The notes under the pieces are model-generated. The model did not search any database. It worked only from the letters and a program-made list of their open reading frames with translations, and was not told where the DNA came from. From contig NZ_CP066339.1 of the NCBI RefSeq assembly GCF_016406125.1, forward strand, positions 4,774,001-4,838,000: DNA of 64,000 nucleotides, in the 5' to 3' direction. Shown here piece by piece: positions 400 through 40,348 of the stretch; positions within the stretch are counted from its first letter, which is position 1; each line of letters starts with the position of its first letter. Source of the DNA: Alicyclobacillus sp. SO9. GTDB taxonomy: Bacteria; Bacillota; Bacilli; Alicyclobacillales; Alicyclobacillaceae. Made by a program: the position numbers and the translations under genes.

Positions 400-417
400 C
401 AAACTCGTATACCTTAC

Positions 418-484
418 CTCGTAGCTAAGCGATTTGCGGTCGCTCTGTAGAAACTGTCAGGCCATATTCCTGACACTATACGAG
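418..484 (-). promoter_or_regulatory. Guanine-type purine riboswitch aptamer
   Basis: Read on the minus strand, a 6-bp P1 (CTCGTA with TACGAG) encloses two hairpins. P2 is GTCAGG/CCTGAC with loop AATATGG. P3 has the loop CCGCAAA. The junction J2/3 reads TTTCTAC, as in known purine aptamers. The nucleotide before the final pyrimidine of J3/1, the specificity position, reads as C. In this family C selects guanine and U selects adenine, and guanine fits the downstream gene guaA. Confidence 0.85.
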
Positions 485-487
485 ATA

Positions 488-551
488 GAATAGAAATGAG
501 CAAGACGACGTCTGCAGATAGTTTTTAGACCTGTTCCTGCTCATTTCATTC
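488..551. repeat. Long inverted repeat between the transglutaminase gene and the guaA riboswitch
   Basis: The arms GAAATGAGCA (493-502) and TGCTCATTTC (538-547) are a perfect 10-bp match. It extends to about 14 bp with one bulge through the flanking GAAT/ATTC. The loop is about 35 bases. No clear T-tract follows on either strand, so it may be a leader hairpin of the guaA transcript or a weak terminator for the 641-2941 gene. Confidence 0.6.
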
Positions 552-29858: not shown

Positions 29859-31106
29859 TCAAGAACCGGATATTTCATCCAATTCCGTATAGAGGTGCAA
29901 CACGCGGCTCGACAACGCACACGTCAACTCGTAAGAAATGGTACCTGCGCTCTGCGCCAGCTTGTGTACAGACACACAAGGCTCAGCATTGTTAGCGATA
30001 CGGTGCTTTTGAAATGAATGCAGCAGAAATTTCTGTTGCTCTTCTTCTGTAAGACCGTCAATTTGGGCAAATTCCCACTCATCGGGAGCACTCTTACCAT
30101 ATATAGTAACACAATCTCCCGGTTTCACGTTGTCAATGTCCGTGGTGTCTATCATCAACTGATCCATACATACATTACCCACAACCGGCGCTTTTTTTGC
30201 ATGAACCAATACATAACCTTGGTTTGAGAGATGCCTGCTGTACCCATCAGCGTAGCCAATAGGAACTGTGGCAATCCGAGTTGGACGCTTTGCCTTAAAC
30301 GTTCCTCCGTAGCCAACCGTTTCACCTGCCGGAATCTCTGCAACGCGGGAAACGAAAGTATACAGATGCAAAGCTTGTTGCAAGTCTATCGGACATTCAA
30401 AATCATCGCTTGGCGGATACCCGTAGGCACTAATGCCGAGACGCACCATATCGTAGTGCCACTCTGGCACGCGCAAAGTTGCCGCGCTGTTCGCTGCATG
30501 CACAAGTTCAGGCTGGATTCCGTGTCTTCGAAAATTGTCCAAATGCGCTTCAAACCGTTCAACTTGATGCTGTGCATGATGAAGGTCGCGTGCATCAGCA
30601 CAGGCAAAATGCGTAAACACGCCTGTGAGGTGAATATCAGAGCGATTTGAAAGCCATTGTGCGGCTGCTAGAGATTCCTCTTCTGACACAAAACCCAGCC
30701 TTGACATCCCGCTGTCAATTTTTAGATGAACCCGCAAAGGGCGTGAAAACGGGGGAACATCATAGCCGGACCAGTTATCTGTGACGGTAACATCAATTTC
30801 ATTTTCAGCCGCCACTCGTGCGGCCACATGTGAAACACTTCCCAAAACCAAAATTCGTATGGGTGAAGATGCGCTGTTGAACAGGGGGTGGTTGCGAAGT
30901 TCTAGCGCCTCTTCCAGTGTGGCAACGCCAAGATAGTCTGCTCCCCCGGCCAGGGCGGCTTTGGCAGCCTGTATCATGCCGTGACCATAACCGTCTGCCT
31001 TAACCGCAACCAGCATCTTCACCGAGTGATGAAGGCGACTGACGACAGCCCTGACATTTTCTCTAATGGCATTTTCATCAATAATGGCAAACGTACCTCT
31101 ATACAT
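29859..31106 (-). CDS. alr: Alanine racemase
   Basis: Pyridoxal-phosphate enzyme making D-alanine for peptidoglycan. The 415-residue protein has the PLP lysine motif VAVKADGYGHG near residue 34, the catalytic tyrosine region TVGYGGTFKAKRPTRIATVP, and a C-terminal beta domain with VGNVCMDQLMIDTTD. The ATG at 31106 follows GGGACGGGAGCA. The protein is somewhat longer than the usual 370-390 residues because of its C-terminal end. It precedes the ndoAI-ndoA pair as in Bacillus. Confidence 0.95.
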   Translation of the reverse strand: MYRGTFAIIDENAIRENVRAVVSRLHHSVKMLVAVKADGYGHGMIQAAKAALAGGADYLGVATLEEALELRNHPLFNSASSPIRILVLGSVSHVAARVAAENEIDVTVTDNWSGYDVPPFSRPLRVHLKIDSGMSRLGFVSEEESLAAAQWLSNRSDIHLTGVFTHFACADARDLHHAQHQVERFEAHLDNFRRHGIQPELVHAANSAATLRVPEWHYDMVRLGISAYGYPPSDDFECPIDLQQALHLYTFVSRVAEIPAGETVGYGGTFKAKRPTRIATVPIGYADGYSRHLSNQGYVLVHAKKAPVVGNVCMDQLMIDTTDIDNVKPGDCVTIYGKSAPDEWEFAQIDGLTEEEQQKFLLHSFQKHRIANNAEPCVSVHKLAQSAGTISYELTCALSSRVLHLYTELDEISGS

Positions 31107-31199
31107 TGCTCCCGTCCCTTCAAGCACACTTTCTATTGTAATAGACGTAGTGACAAATCACCATGACGTGTCTCTAGGAAAATCTAGGGTTGTCGAACA

Positions 31200-32320: not shown

Positions 32321-33325
32321 TTATTTCCCAACTGTCCCAAGTGTTGTGATCGCAATATGCTTCATCTGGTCCATCGACAGCTTGTCGCTTGTCAGCGCAA
32401 ATTCAACACCATTGTGAATCCACATGAGCTGATGCGCCTGTTCCGTCCCGTTATAAATCGCCGGAACCCCAAACATGTCGACCAATTCCCCTCCGGCAAT
32501 ACCGGCAACACCTGGTGTTGGCCGAAACTCTGACAATGTAAAAGCGTGTTGCCCTGTATAACGCAGCAGGTAATCGTCTGTGCTCACTTCCTGCATGTCG
32601 GAAAGCTTGTCACCCAGTCCTGTTATGGTCGGCTCAAGGTATCCGAACGGTTGCGACATGCTTGCCAGAGTGGTCTTTGCACCGCTGCCCTCGGCAATTT
32701 TCTGCGGGTTAAAATCTGCCGTCTGGAACTTTGCAGGGCTTTCAAATTTCTTGAAATCAATTGTTACAACCGCTTGGTTCTCGGCATCATAGAGCACCAC
32801 TTTTTTGGGATTCAGTGTTTTTGCATCTAGCTGAACGTGCTCTTTGGTAACTACGTCGTTAGCAGGTGACACGGGCATGTCGAACTGATAAAGTCCGTTT
32901 TTCTTCTTAACAGTCACCTTGTCGCCACTGGACAACTGTTGAAGAATCTGGGTATACAGATAGATGTGTCCCTGATTCTGTGCCCAGTTTCCGTTAAACC
33001 GAAATACCTTTTGGAGTGACGGACTCACAATGAACATACCATTCTTGTTTTTGACAATGACTTGGTTGATTTTGTCCGGTGATTCTCCTAATGAGATGCG
33101 ATATACATCCGGACTCTCATACCAAGTTTCAATGTAGTAGGTTTGCGAACTGTGATCCATCTGAACGGTCATGGTTGCTGTCGTCTTATAATTTTGTTTG
33201 GTCATGGCCTGTACATGGGACTGTAATTTGGGTTTCATGCTCTGGCTTGAAGGGGCACCGCAACCCGATACGAGACCAATAACAATGCCTGTTGCAACCA
33301 ACCATCCGCCAATTTTTCGCATCAT
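32321..33325 (-). CDS. ydcC: YdcC-like lipoprotein (LolA/GerS-type fold)
   Basis: A 334-residue lipoprotein with lipobox LVSGC near residue 22. The rest resembles the outer-membrane lipoprotein sorting (LolA-like) fold, with the repeating pattern of TMTVQMD, YYIETWYESPDVYRI and IVSPSLQKVFRF. It occupies the place of ydcC between acpS/nnr and alr in Bacillus. YdcC is a sporulation-controlled lipoprotein and related GerS acts in spore germination in Clostridia. The exact role here is inferred from position and fold. Confidence 0.8.
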   Translation of the reverse strand: MMRKIGGWLVATGIVIGLVSGCGAPSSQSMKPKLQSHVQAMTKQNYKTTATMTVQMDHSSQTYYIETWYESPDVYRISLGESPDKINQVIVKNKNGMFIVSPSLQKVFRFNGNWAQNQGHIYLYTQILQQLSSGDKVTVKKKNGLYQFDMPVSPANDVVTKEHVQLDAKTLNPKKVVLYDAENQAVVTIDFKKFESPAKFQTADFNPQKIAEGSGAKTTLASMSQPFGYLEPTITGLGDKLSDMQEVSTDDYLLRYTGQHAFTLSEFRPTPGVAGIAGGELVDMFGVPAIYNGTEQAHQLMWIHNGVEFALTSDKLSMDQMKHIAITTLGTVGK

Positions 33326-33352: not shown

Positions 33353-34819
33353 TCAATCTTGCTGCCGTACCTGATTGAGACTGTCGAAATGAAGGCATAT
33401 TGCGCGGGAAATACTTTCGACAACATCTGACGCCATAACGCTGGTAGATGAAAACTGAGACCCCGCCAGTTCACCGGCACATCCGTGCAGCCAAGCCCCG
33501 ACGGCTGCAGCCTCACGAGGATGCAACCCCTGCGCCAAAAGACCTCCAATTACGCCTGCCAAAACATCCCCTGTCCCAGCCGTGGCCAAAGCCTCGTTTC
33601 CTGAAGAGTTAACCAACAGCGGGGCGTCCGGAGACGCAATTAGAGTGTGATAGCCCTTCAGCACCACGACTGCACCCGTTTTTTCAGCCAGTGTAACAGC
33701 AGCCTGTGCGCGGTGACTTTGAACCTCTTGCGTTGTCCAGCCAAGCAGTCTGGCGCATTCTTTGGGATGAGGTGTTAAGACGCAGTTGCGTCCAATTAAT
33801 TCACCGTGCACTGCTGGGACCAGCCCGTCCGCGTCAATGACAGCGGGCTTATCCCAATTCTTTAGAACCCTCATCCACTGCGCTGCTTTCTGACCCAGCC
33901 CTGGTCCGACCACAATGCTCTGACAGTCTGAAAAAGCATCCGTATCAGGACCCCTGCGCAGAACGAATTCAAGTGGTGCCTGCATAGGTTCTTCAGAGGA
34001 TGCCATCACAATCAAGCCTGATCCGCTTCTCGCTGCTCCTAAGCCTGCAAGAATCGGTGCTCCTTTCATTTCCCCGACAGCAATCCCTGTTTTCCCGAAC
34101 GTTCCCTTGTGGGAATCTCGTTTTCGCAGCGGCCACCGTCCCCCAACTGCTTGTCGAACCCAGTGCAAGTCAACGTATTCTGCCAGCCCTGACGCAGTTG
34201 GAATATCGATGCCAATGTCGACCACATGAACTGTTCCGGAAAAATAGCAGCCAGGTGCAACTGCCGTCCCAAGTTTCTGCGCAGCAATACACACGGTCTC
34301 ATCCGCCTCCACCGCAAGGCCCGGGACCTCACCCGTACTGGCGTTTACACCTGTGGGTACATCCACAGCCACTACTTTTCCGGCTCTCTCGTTCAGACTC
34401 TGCACCATGTCCTGCAACAAGCCCTCTAGGGGACGAGTTGTTCCTGTCCCAAGGAGCGCATCTACGTACATATCCGCTTCCGGAATCTGCGCCGCAGATG
34501 TTACCTCTGCAAAGGTTACGCCGGCCGCATGCGCCATCTCATACGCTGTCCGTGCATCACCGGACAGGTCGTTGGTACTCGCTGCTGAAATAACCTGGAC
34601 AGATACACCAAGCCTGTGAAGCAAACGAGCGGCTATCCAGCCGTCTCCGCCGTTATTCCCCTTCCCGCACAGGACACAGACATGGGTTGGATCAGATTTT
34701 CGTACAGTGTCAGCCACTGCCTTTCCCGCATGCTCCATTAAGACAATTCCGGGTACGCATCCTGAAGTAATTGTTTGTTCGTCGAACTGTCGCATTTCCT
34801 TACTAGTTACGAGAATCAC
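33353..34819 (-). CDS. nnrDE: Bifunctional NAD(P)HX epimerase/dehydratase
   Basis: Repairs hydrated NADH and NADPH. The 488-residue protein joins an N-terminal epimerase (YjeF_N; CGKGNNGGDGWIAARLL near residue 53) to a C-terminal ADP-dependent dehydratase of the ribokinase fold (VVLKGYHTLIASP and GTGDVLAGVIGGLLAQG). The GTG at 34819 has GGGGAGG eight bases upstream. It lies between acpS and ydcC, as in Bacilli. Confidence 0.95.
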   Translation of the reverse strand: MILVTSKEMRQFDEQTITSGCVPGIVLMEHAGKAVADTVRKSDPTHVCVLCGKGNNGGDGWIAARLLHRLGVSVQVISAASTNDLSGDARTAYEMAHAAGVTFAEVTSAAQIPEADMYVDALLGTGTTRPLEGLLQDMVQSLNERAGKVVAVDVPTGVNASTGEVPGLAVEADETVCIAAQKLGTAVAPGCYFSGTVHVVDIGIDIPTASGLAEYVDLHWVRQAVGGRWPLRKRDSHKGTFGKTGIAVGEMKGAPILAGLGAARSGSGLIVMASSEEPMQAPLEFVLRRGPDTDAFSDCQSIVVGPGLGQKAAQWMRVLKNWDKPAVIDADGLVPAVHGELIGRNCVLTPHPKECARLLGWTTQEVQSHRAQAAVTLAEKTGAVVVLKGYHTLIASPDAPLLVNSSGNEALATAGTGDVLAGVIGGLLAQGLHPREAAAVGAWLHGCAGELAGSQFSSTSVMASDVVESISRAICLHFDSLNQVRQQD

Positions 34820-34993: not shown

Positions 34994-35365
34994 TTAGAAC
35001 TTTTCCCAAATCGCAAAAGCGACAGCAGAAGTATCGCTGTGTGAAATCGACACATGCCAGGAATCACCGCTGTATTCCACACTGTCTGCGTCCAACCACT
35101 CAATCTCCAGCCCATTTTGGCCCAGCATAATGCTAATTTGTTGTGGATGCAGCGAGCCAAGGCCCAGTCCGAGCGCTTTTCCCATTGCCTCTTTGGCAGC
35201 AAAACGGCCGGCCAGAAACTCTGCTCGTCTGCGTTTGCTCAATGTTTCCCAGTAACCCAATTCAGGCCCCGACAGCAGACGTTTGGGGAATCTCGTCGGC
35301 AATCTGGTCAACGCATCCTGAATTCGTTGAATTTCGACAATATCTGTTCCAATTCCGGCAATCAT
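34994..35365 (-). CDS. acpS: Holo-[acyl-carrier-protein] synthase
   Basis: Transfers 4'-phosphopantetheine from CoA to acyl carrier protein. The 123-residue protein starts MIAGIGTDIVEIQRI and has the magnesium/CoA motif FAAKEAMGKALG and HVSISHSDTSAVAFA. The ATG at 35365 follows AAGGTGCAGGA; an ATG 18 bases earlier is in frame. It heads the acpS-nnrDE-ydcC block, with about 175 non-coding bases before nnrDE. Confidence 0.96.
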   Translation of the reverse strand: MIAGIGTDIVEIQRIQDALTRLPTRFPKRLLSGPELGYWETLSKRRRAEFLAGRFAAKEAMGKALGLGLGSLHPQQISIMLGQNGLEIEWLDADSVEYSGDSWHVSISHSDTSAVAFAIWEKF

Positions 35366-35455
35366 TCCTGCACCTTCTTCCATCCCATTTGATACAATAG
35401 CGGCGGTATTGTCGACATCCTTTAAGACAGACCTGTCAACTGAGGAGGCATCATT

Positions 35456-36190
35456 TTGATAAAACAGTTTTGGCAGACAATGACTGCACTGGCTGTGCTC
35501 GTCACCGCCGTATCCGGTCTATCTCTTATGTATCTCGGATTGAGTAATATGTCATTAACACCGGCTACCAGTTACTCGGAATGGACCAACCTGCCGGTCA
35601 CATTCCCTTCAATCTGGAATATCCTGCGTCCTGCCGCCAGTGCAGGATGGTTGGTAACCATTGTTGTCCTCGTCCTTCAAATACTTTTAACGGGTGGTTT
35701 TTACGGGACACTTATTCGCACAAACACTGGACAAGCGGCGTCAGTCAACACGTTCATGTCAGACGCCCTCCGTTCCTTCGGACGATTGCTCACTTGGAAC
35801 ATCCTCTGGGCCGCCATTTTTCTGTTAATTGCTGCAGTTGCACGAAGCCTGCCACAAGCTGCGCTGCTCTTAACGATTCTGGCCATCATTGTTCGATTCG
35901 TCTTTTTGTTCGCGGAAACAGCGCTTGTTGGCGAAGGCCGTGTGCCCATGGCCAATGCTCTTCGAACGGCAGCTGTAACACTGTTAGGACGAATGATGCA
36001 AATGATCCCGTTTGGCGTAATCGTCATCGTGTTGTCCGGCCTTGCCGAGAAACTGTTTGCATCGTTTCCACTTCTGAGAATCCCAACAGTTCTTGCGTAC
36101 GCACTCGCCATGACATGGATTCTACACATGATTGTAGCGCGTTATATTTATTACTCAAACTACCAGTCAAGTCCAATCTCCAGAGATTGA
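35456..36190 (+). CDS. Polytopic membrane protein of unknown function
   Basis: A 244-residue protein with about six predicted membrane segments (residues ~10-30, 65-85, 110-130, 135-155, 180-200, 210-230) and few polar residues. I do not recognise a specific family; the layout resembles DUF/YciC-type glycerophosphoryl or permease-like membrane proteins. The TTG start has GAGGAGG upstream. It is divergent from acpS with 90 bases between them, including a short inverted repeat ACAATA-N7-TATTGT. Confidence 0.55.
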   Translation: MIKQFWQTMTALAVLVTAVSGLSLMYLGLSNMSLTPATSYSEWTNLPVTFPSIWNILRPAASAGWLVTIVVLVLQILLTGGFYGTLIRTNTGQAASVNTFMSDALRSFGRLLTWNILWAAIFLLIAAVARSLPQAALLLTILAIIVRFVFLFAETALVGEGRVPMANALRTAAVTLLGRMMQMIPFGVIVIVLSGLAEKLFASFPLLRIPTVLAYALAMTWILHMIVARYIYYSNYQSSPISRD

Positions 36191-36307: not shown

Positions 36308-37018
36308 TCAGGGCGCATACCAGCTAACGGGTTGAACGGTCATGTGCCCGTCAAACTGCGAAATACGGCGGACCTCTTGTAGAGCCTCATTTACAACACT
36401 GCGGTTTCCAACAGCAGTCACTATCAATGGCACTTCATTCCGTTTCCAAAACCAACCAGTCTTTTTGGAACTGCGCGCCATACCAAAGCCTTCTACCGCA
36501 CGTGTCACAGAGACCCAGACCGCCCCCTTGCTACGCATGGCTTCTACAATGCGCTGATACACGGGGAGTCCATCACTCTGTCTCGATTCCATGACATAAA
36601 CCTCCACTTTCAACCCCTCGCTAAAGTCTGGATAAAGCTCTGAGTAAGTCCACGGTACACCATCAACGGATTCTTGGGCAGAGAAAACGTCTTTCAACTC
36701 ATCGCCTTTATGCACAATCATTACCCCTCTCCCTCTCAACAAACCTGTTGTATTCCTGATAAACGACCACATGTCGGAAAAATCACCGGAAAAGAGGAGC
36801 GAAAGAGCCAATTCATTTGAACCTATTTCGCTGTCCTTATGGCGTAGAAAATCTCCTCGGTAACATCCAAACGAGTGCATACAAGTCACCCCAGTCAGCG
36901 AGTACTGGTGCATCAGTTCCACAAGGTTGGCATAAAGCAACCTGCCTCCGACAGCCTCGGCTCCATTACGCAAGCCGCAAATTGCGTTTACCTTAAATGC
37001 GTCCGCTGACACTGGCAT
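36308..37018 (-). CDS. Tandem DUF190 protein
   Basis: A 236-residue cytoplasmic protein that appears to hold two DUF190 domains. The first (residues ~5-105) has LLYANLVELMHQYSLTGVTC and SFGCYRG. The second (~125-230) has LPVYQRIVEAMRSKGAVWV, VTRAVEGFG and PLIVTAVGNRSVVNEALQEV, the usual DUF190 end. DUF190 proteins are PII-like and are often single-domain partners of CrcB fluoride channels. No crcB lies nearby. GGAGGCTGACGAAT precedes the ATG. It looks monocistronic. Function unknown. Confidence 0.7.
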   Translation of the reverse strand: MPVSADAFKVNAICGLRNGAEAVGGRLLYANLVELMHQYSLTGVTCMHSFGCYRGDFLRHKDSEIGSNELALSLLFSGDFSDMWSFIRNTTGLLRGRGVMIVHKGDELKDVFSAQESVDGVPWTYSELYPDFSEGLKVEVYVMESRQSDGLPVYQRIVEAMRSKGAVWVSVTRAVEGFGMARSSKKTGWFWKRNEVPLIVTAVGNRSVVNEALQEVRRISQFDGHMTVQPVSWYAP

Positions 37019-37119
37019 ATTCGTCAGCCTCCTGGTTGCGTTTAGTGCAACCTATGCCGTGATATGGCACAATAGTGCATGTATCCAACTTAGCTGGGAA
37101 AGGTCGGGAGGATATATCC

Positions 37120-37302
37120 ATGTTGTGGGGAAAAATACTGATTTGTGTCATTGTGGCAACAATCATTACGATAGGCATTCAACTTCGTCCAGGCGCACAA
37201 AGACCCCTGTCCCTTTGGAAGCAGAGTGCCATATTTGTTATGGGGTTGATAGTTGGAGTTGTGATGTTGAGTACACGGTCATTGTATCTGGCGGGACACT
37301 AG
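37120..37302 (+). CDS. Small two-helix membrane protein
   Basis: A 60-residue protein with two hydrophobic segments, ICVIVATIITIGIQL and AIFVMGLIVGVVMLS, separated by a basic loop (RPGAQRPLSLWKQ). GGGAGGATATATCC precedes the ATG at 37120, which supports real translation. No family recognised. The next plus-strand terminator is at 37595. Confidence 0.55.
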   Translation: MLWGKILICVIVATIITIGIQLRPGAQRPLSLWKQSAIFVMGLIVGVVMLSTRSLYLAGH

Positions 37303-39601: not shown

Positions 39602-40348
39602 TTGATAGAAATACGAAGTCGCCATGAAATCAACATAATGCGGGAAGCTGGACTGGTTATCGCAGAATGCCACCAGTCGCTTAAGGACTTCATAAAACCT
39701 GGTATTACCACAATGCAGATTGACGAGTTTGTCGAAGACTTTATTCGAAAGCACAAAATGGAGCCTGCTCAAAAGGGCTATAAGGGGTATCCTTATGCCT
39801 CCTGCACCTCCGTGAACGACGTGATTTGTCATGGATTTCCGGGATCGCAGAGGTTGAAAGACGGAGACATTATTACGGTTGACATGGTTACATTGCACAA
39901 GGGGCTTCATGCTGACTCTGCATGGAGCTACGCCGTTGGTGAAATCAGCGACACGGCAAGGAAACTGATGGACGTCACAGAGACGGCTTTGTATAAGGGC
40001 ATTGAAGTCTCCGTGGCGGGAAATCGAATTTCTGACATTGGGCATGCCATTCAAACCTATGTTGAAGGAGAAGGATTTTCTGTAGTTCGAGATTTCATCG
40101 GACACGGCGTTGGGCGGAAAATGCATGAAAGCCCTGAAGTCCCCCATTTTGGTCCTCCCCATAAGGGACCCAAAATTAAAAAGGGAATGACCTTTACTAT
40201 TGAACCCATGGTTAATACAGGGACTTATAACGTGAGTGTCGACGATGACGGATGGACAGCAAGAACTGCTGATGGAGGGCTTAGCATCCAATACGAACAC
40301 ACGCTTGTAGTAACGGACAACGGCCCGGAAATACTAACGAAGCTGTAG
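39602..40348 (+). CDS. map: Type I methionine aminopeptidase
   Basis: Removes the N-terminal Met from new proteins. The 248-residue protein has the five metal ligands: Asp in ITVDMVTL, Asp in HADSAWSY (11 residues later), His in GHGVGRKMHE, Glu in FTIEPMVN and Glu in YEHTLVV. The TTG start has GGGAGGAACTGCAC upstream. It is not the map gene of the ribosomal protein cluster context, so it is likely a second copy, like Bacillus YflG. Confidence 0.94.
   Translation: MIEIRSRHEINIMREAGLVIAECHQSLKDFIKPGITTMQIDEFVEDFIRKHKMEPAQKGYKGYPYASCTSVNDVICHGFPGSQRLKDGDIITVDMVTLHKGLHADSAWSYAVGEISDTARKLMDVTETALYKGIEVSVAGNRISDIGHAIQTYVEGEGFSVVRDFIGHGVGRKMHESPEVPHFGPPHKGPKIKKGMTFTIEPMVNTGTYNVSVDDDGWTARTADGGLSIQYEHTLVVTDNGPEILTKL

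Follow-up and report, generated by a model that had tools for sequence, protein, structure and literature searches.

A conserved tandem DUF190 protein with two PII-like domains encoded apart from crcB in Alicyclobacillus sp. SO9

The tandem DUF190 gene and its neighborhood

The window, that is, the whole stretch of 64,000 nucleotides of Alicyclobacillus sp. SO9 that was analyzed, contains an intact open reading frame with an ATG start, which encodes a protein with two DUF190 domains (Table 1). The gene order revealed a single gene with one convergent and one divergent neighbor. Window-like tandem genes are called type A below and are a group of positional orthologues in the family of the window; "type B" is a label of convenience for the other tandem genes of the family and denotes no clade. 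Loci and genomes are cited by our L and G numbers where they need to be told apart.

Table 1. Features of the window around the tandem DUF190 gene
Feature	Position	Strand	Basis or remark
Purine riboswitch	402..503	-	79.6 bits
alr, alanine racemase	29859..31127	-	conserved neighborhood
Lipoprotein-like protein (lolA-like gene)	32321..33325	-	conserved neighborhood; weak LolA/DUF4367 similarity, below both cut-offs
nnr, NAD(P)H-hydrate epimerase/dehydratase	33353..34819	-	conserved neighborhood
acpS	34994..35383	-	conserved neighborhood
Convergent membrane protein	35456..36190	+	no Pfam match
Type A tandem DUF190 gene	36308..37018	-	ORF, Pfam, and gene order; 236 aa + stop
C-terminal DUF190 domain, residues 129-236	36311..36634	-	Pfam; structural match of the model to 2dcl
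N-terminal PII-like domain, residues 7-109, diverged	36692..37000	-	type A N-half HMM; structural match of the model to 1o51; weak Pfam score
AGGAGG, probable ribosome-binding site	37028..37033	-	sequence reading; ends 9 nt before the ATG
TATGGCACAAT, window copy of the intergenic element, upstream of the gene for the small membrane protein	37063..37073	+	
Small membrane protein, two hydrophobic stretches (by eye)	37120..37302	+	divergent neighbor
map, methionyl aminopeptidase	39602..40348	+	conserved neighborhood

The neighbors of the gene in the window served as queries in translated searches. As a result, acpS, nnr, and the lolA-like gene were detected in 18 of the 19 type A loci read, the exception being L043, where the locus is cut by a contig end. 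Among the same 19 loci, alr and map were each found at 13, the convergent membrane gene at 14, and VIT1 at 10, and part of the missing neighbors is accounted for by short loci and contig ends. The convergent membrane gene was considered as a partner of the type A protein and rejected, as it accompanies 14 of the 19 type A genes, yet relatives also lie at two of the eight loci read without type A.

Sequence and predicted fold of the two halves

The full-length window protein scored 64.6 bits against the Pfam DUF190 family (PF02641, cut-off 23.4 bits). The C half alone reached 55.6 bits (E 6.7e-15; residues 138-231 in the whole protein), and the N half alone remained below the cut-off with 12.9 bits (E 0.14). 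An HMM built from the 18 other type A N halves gave 41.9 bits for the window N half, which scored 9.3, 2.6, and 1.6 bits against the HMMs of type B N, type A C, and type B C halves, respectively; the window C half scored 102.3 bits against the type A C-half HMM. In a comparison of the 20 type A N halves, 18 passed the Pfam cut-off on their own score, the exceptions being those of the window (12.6 bits in this comparison) and G035 (17.1 bits). Judged from these profile scores, the N half of the window protein is a DUF190 homologue.

The AlphaFold2 model, computed from 19 type A sequences, showed a mean pLDDT of 77.5 and a pTM of 0.75. The confidence was low for the loops and the linker, and pLDDT values below 50 were obtained for residues 64-67 and for residues 114-122 of the linker. 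Both halves were modeled with the order beta-alpha-beta-beta-alpha-beta, which is the ferredoxin-like fold of PII-like proteins. In the VIA-align analysis, model residues 7-109 were superimposed on TM0021 (1o51) with Z 8.9 and an rmsd of 1.6 A over 88 residues, and residues 129-236 on PH1503 (2dcl) with Z 8.4 and 2.0 A over 96 residues, so that the best structural match of each half was a solved DUF190 structure. A sequence search with the C half likewise retrieved PH1503 (E 1.6e-6). CPII, SbtB, and PII came next in the list at about Z 6-7, amid engineered ferredoxin folds of similar Z, and thus the two DUF190 matches alone stand out. By model alignment, the nucleotide-binding PII-like proteins CPII and SbtB would share the fold class of the window protein, but these matches are weak (roughly 5-12% identity, with an engineered protein at Z 7.8 in the same list) and the genomic setting differs. 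Foldseek placed 2dcl at rank 1 and 1o51 at rank 16, with unrelated ferredoxin-fold proteins between them. The type B tandem protein of L037 was also modeled as two such domains (pLDDT 80.9).

These results bear out the original prediction of two DUF190 domains in one chain, through the Pfam match of the C half and through the predicted PII-like fold and type A HMM score of the N half. An N half outside the PII-like fold, which would have refuted this prediction, was thus not observed. Accordingly, the window protein has the PII-like domain of single-domain DUF190 proteins (UPF0166, COG1993; TM0021 and PH1503) in each of its halves, but differs from them in carrying two domains per chain and in having no GFG motif in the N half. 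The stronger divergence that had been ascribed to the first half holds with respect to the DUF190 consensus; on the columns conserved within type A, however, the two halves are equal, as the window protein keeps 20 of 29 in the N half and 19 of 27 in the C half.

The position of the GFG loop was taken from PH1503. GFG was found in none of the 19 type A and none of the 10 type B N halves, while GFG or GYG was present in all five single domains, in all ten type B C halves, and in 12 of the 19 type A C halves; the window protein reads GCY in the N half and GFG in the C half. Because GFG is absent from every type A and type B N half, its loss alone does not point to a new ligand at this site. R59 and E64 are invariant across all 19 type A N halves, that of the window included, and these two residues are candidates for a putative site specific to the N domains.

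A protein that is drifting in this genome, with the N half under relaxed constraint and the C half alone active, would account for several of these observations: the N half has the longest end branch in the domain tree (2.54, against 1.12 for the C half and a median of 0.34) and the low Pfam score given above, and G40 and P71, which are identical in the 18 other aligned type A proteins, are replaced by S and A, respectively. The intact reading frame and ribosome-binding site, the predicted fold of the N half, the retained R59 and E64, and the equal conservation of both halves nevertheless speak for a maintained protein, and we regard drift as very improbable.

The tandem had also been read as a pseudo-dimer, which appears doubtful by analogy. 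PII-like proteins function as trimers, as stated in a passage of PMC1779786, and a tandem chain would thus more likely trimerize. The SA1388/YqfO proteins of the same source form a NIF3 hexamer capped by two lids, each a PII-like trimer, so that an assembly with six PII-like domains in two trimers has a precedent; there, however, each chain has a single PII-like domain inserted in NIF3, whereas the window protein is a tandem.

Distribution and origin of the tandem genes

The protein search detected relatives in 26 of the 41 genomes of the window's family, a set in which the window's genus is represented by one genome; none turned up in the 18 genomes examined from the rest of the order. Type A genes were present in 20 of the 41 family genomes, of which 19 were whole and one was split over two contigs (G039, excluded from alignment A1), and 21 genomes were without type A. 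The open reading frame selection skipped the DUF190 genes of L047 and L049. Other tandem or split-tandem DUF190 genes occurred in 12 family genomes, and six genomes (G016, G022, G023, G031, G032, and G033) contained type A together with another tandem or split tandem; this second gene was placed as type B by the tree in G022, G023, G031, and G032, and lay outside the tree in G016 and G033. Apart from the window gene, no DUF190 gene of the window genome exceeded the cut-off.

DUF190 matches at E<=0.001 were obtained for 30 of the 398 genomes in the class sample, and those of 26 genomes were over the cut-off. Tandem frames outside the window's family but in the same class were found in G119 and G163, both adjoining crcB. 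Of the 398 genomes in the phylum sample, 71 matched, and no frame with two DUF190 matches was seen among the matches listed, where the window protein itself appears through its C half only. A contig pattern search for related loci returned 13 matching stretches and no confirmed relative. The tandem is therefore not peculiar to the window, since it is the usual form in the family and also lies by crcB in the families of G119 and G163; it is a real, conserved variant that is not confined to one genome. The prediction thus stood in its two PII-like domains, its diverged N half, and the lack of a nearby crcB, whereas a tandem peculiar to this site is not supported.

Profile comparisons gave scores of 81.8 between the N halves of types A and B, 104.2 between their C halves, 61.5 between the two halves of type A, and 80.8 between the two halves of type B, the last being about equal to the score between the N halves. 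A domain tree was calculated from 61 rows and 109 columns, in which both halves of L024 and L035 were omitted and L076 alone of the two outside tandems was included; the type B set of alignment A2 and of the tree comprised 10 proteins, with L064, L067, L071, and L072 not placed. The C halves of type A, type B, and L076 formed a starred group (96/88), and the N halves fell on one side of a branch (84/84, unstarred). Type B was not monophyletic, as L027 grouped with L076. The type B tandems and L076 (G163, by two crcB genes) have the same two-domain plan as the window protein, with N halves grouping with N halves and C halves with C halves. Constraining the type A N halves to group with the type A C halves cost 16 log units at a p-AU of 0.073, so that a separate duplication within type A is not rejected. 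One old duplication, before type A split off, is the reading favored by the tree, under which the altered N loop would be common to the crcB-linked tandems and not new at this locus.

In an Nnr tree that covered 26 loci, 18 of them with type A and 8 without (the latter from 8 of the 21 genomes without the gene; L050, which is short, and L043, which has no Nnr, were omitted), the presence of type A required three changes, in a topology with many open forks. One gain plus two losses would fit this pattern.

Relation to crcB and fluoride riboswitches

Four genes of the window genome scored above the crcB cut-off; they are arranged as two pairs, at C1:3283734-3284489 and at C1:5012593-5013407, and one further, weak match remained below it. 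The tandem gene lies at C1:4810311-4811018 and the closest pair is about 202 kb away, in agreement with the earlier statement that no crcB is nearby. A fluoride riboswitch was located directly 5' of the pair at C1:5012593-5013407 (L007); searches of the other pair (L005) and, at the gathering score, of the 64 kb of the window detected none. At the type A loci, neither a fluoride riboswitch (0/19) nor a CrcB-cluster gene (0/19) was detected.

Of the 14 other DUF190 loci, by comparison, five had crcB (L060, L062, L063, L065, and L071), eight had a fluoride riboswitch, and nine had either or both. In L060, L062, L063, L067, and L071, the riboswitch directly precedes a co-directional unit containing the DUF190 gene or genes, in L067 through eno. 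Neither crcB nor the riboswitch was found in the stretch read at L059, L064, L068, L069, and L070. Two DUF190 genes are outside this count, at G033:C2:23788-24312, by crcB, and at G037:C29:29220-29948 (L132). The other tandem loci thus have crcB and/or a fluoride riboswitch in nine of 14 cases, whereas type A sits by acpS, nnr, and the lolA-like gene with neither. The separation by location is incomplete, because in L065, L069, and L070, which belong to one genus, another tandem DUF190 gene lies about 8 kb or less from alr-lolA-nnr, on the far side, with crcB in L065; in other genera, this region is the site of type A.

Several further arrangements were recorded at the other loci. In L129:6214-7866 (G059), a Na/H exchanger (PF00999) is fused to a C-terminal DUF190 domain and followed by crcB, which gives a transporter and a PII-like regulator in one chain. 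In L071:6295-8757 (G023), a riboswitch, two crcB genes, two single DUF190 frames, and one tandem stand in a row, making four DUF190 domains. Enolase is a fluoride-sensitive enzyme, and its gene adjoins DUF190 in L067 (by NCBIfam), where the fluoride riboswitch lies ahead of eno, and in L066 (by cluster). The tandem DUF190 genes of L059, L064, and L068, where no riboswitch or crcB was found, adjoin genes for a complex-I/hydrogenase-like membrane complex, assigned from Proton_antipo_M, 49 kDa, and Oxidored_q6 matches in Pfam searches with the L064 and L068 proteins. Fluoride riboswitches occur together with a YjbE-like or YtaF-like gene or a sigma-70 factor gene in L060, L061, L063, L066, and L072, which suggests wider fluoride islands; the YjbE-like and YtaF-like proteins are below the NCBIfam cut-offs, and the families were tested on the L063 and L066 proteins and assigned by cluster in the rest.

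The type A protein could still serve CrcB channels in trans from its distant locus. Two crcB pairs, one with a riboswitch, are present in the window genome along with no second DUF190 gene over the cut-off; crcB is part of five of the 14 other DUF190 loci, and the class includes two further families with tandem DUF190 genes next to crcB. All 41 family genomes have crcB, and co-occurrence with crcB was for that reason discarded as an uninformative functional test. On the other hand, crcB occurs without type A in 21 of these 41 genomes, type A is additional to another tandem in six genomes, and no fluoride riboswitch accompanies the 19 type A loci or occurs in the window. A service to CrcB in trans is thus considered unlikely, although it is the foremost alternative in which the link to fluoride is kept. 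A role of type A away from fluoride is plausible, given the type A loci with neither riboswitch nor crcB and the six genomes with a second tandem.

The divergent small membrane gene

The small membrane protein encoded divergently from the tandem gene matched no Pfam family over any cut-off. Its gene is divergently oriented and upstream of the tandem gene, both in the window and in all 18 type A loci with a flank; some DUF190 gene borders were placed by hand in this survey. An intergenic element, TGTGGCACAAT, was found with no more than two mismatches in 17 of these 19 places. Such an arrangement resembles a GlnK-AmtB pair, in which the type A protein would act on the small membrane protein. 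The small gene, however, is present in all 41 family genomes, 21 of them without type A (an in-frame stop was reported in G001, G020, and G037), and in all eight loci read without type A it adjoins acpS at the flank that type A would otherwise occupy, with the element kept in four of the seven such loci scanned. Since the small gene is family-wide and keeps its place without type A, its adjacency mostly reflects conservation of the locus; its candidacy as a specific partner is weakened accordingly, and a GlnK-AmtB-like pair appears quite improbable. By eye, the element was also compared with sporulation and sigma-54 promoters, a reading that was dropped because the second half of either consensus is not conserved.

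Proposed role of the type A protein

In the open-access literature searched, no paper was found on tandem DUF190 proteins or on a tested function of DUF190, although solved structures exist. DUF190 was proposed to be a GlnK-related channel modulator, with predicted channels in Pelobacter, in a passage of PMC3543383, and CutA1 is labeled "formerly DUF190" in a passage of PMC8469502. PMC12435205 concerns DUF1907 and is irrelevant here.

Taken together, the type A protein probably senses something for a partner encoded elsewhere. We consider it reasonably likely, on balance, that the window protein is an orphan tandem PII-like regulator acting in trans on a target encoded at another locus. In favor of this reading, the association of DUF190 with transporters recurs, in the adjacency to crcB, in the fusion to a Na/H exchanger, and in the predicted channels of Pelobacter (PMC3543383); against it, type A has no neighbors specific to it. 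The tandem would have arisen once, before the split of type A, which would then have settled beside acpS and later been lost in some lineages. The tandem chains may trimerize into two domain trimers. PII-like proteins bind adenine nucleotides, and such a nucleotide would be the most likely small effector of the type A protein, bound by the more canonical C domains in the intersubunit clefts. Docking on the target, probably either a transport protein of the membrane or an enzyme of metabolism, would then occur through the loop that connects strands 2 and 3, and the N domains, in which the canonical loop motif is lost, probably act as a scaffold or form a second, differently tuned site.

More tentatively, type A might be a PII-like signaling family outside fluoride homeostasis, re-purposed from a fluoride setting to a new effector and target, with the N-domain loop of R59 and E64 forming a second, non-canonical ligand site that acts jointly with that of the C domain in one chain; we hold this to be possible but somewhat less likely than its contrary.

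In summary, two kinds of tandem DUF190 genes coexist in the family, one often in a fluoride context and the other not. This natural contrast would give a handle on the role of DUF190 with and without CrcB, and also on whether two different sensing sites can be combined in a single PII-like chain.
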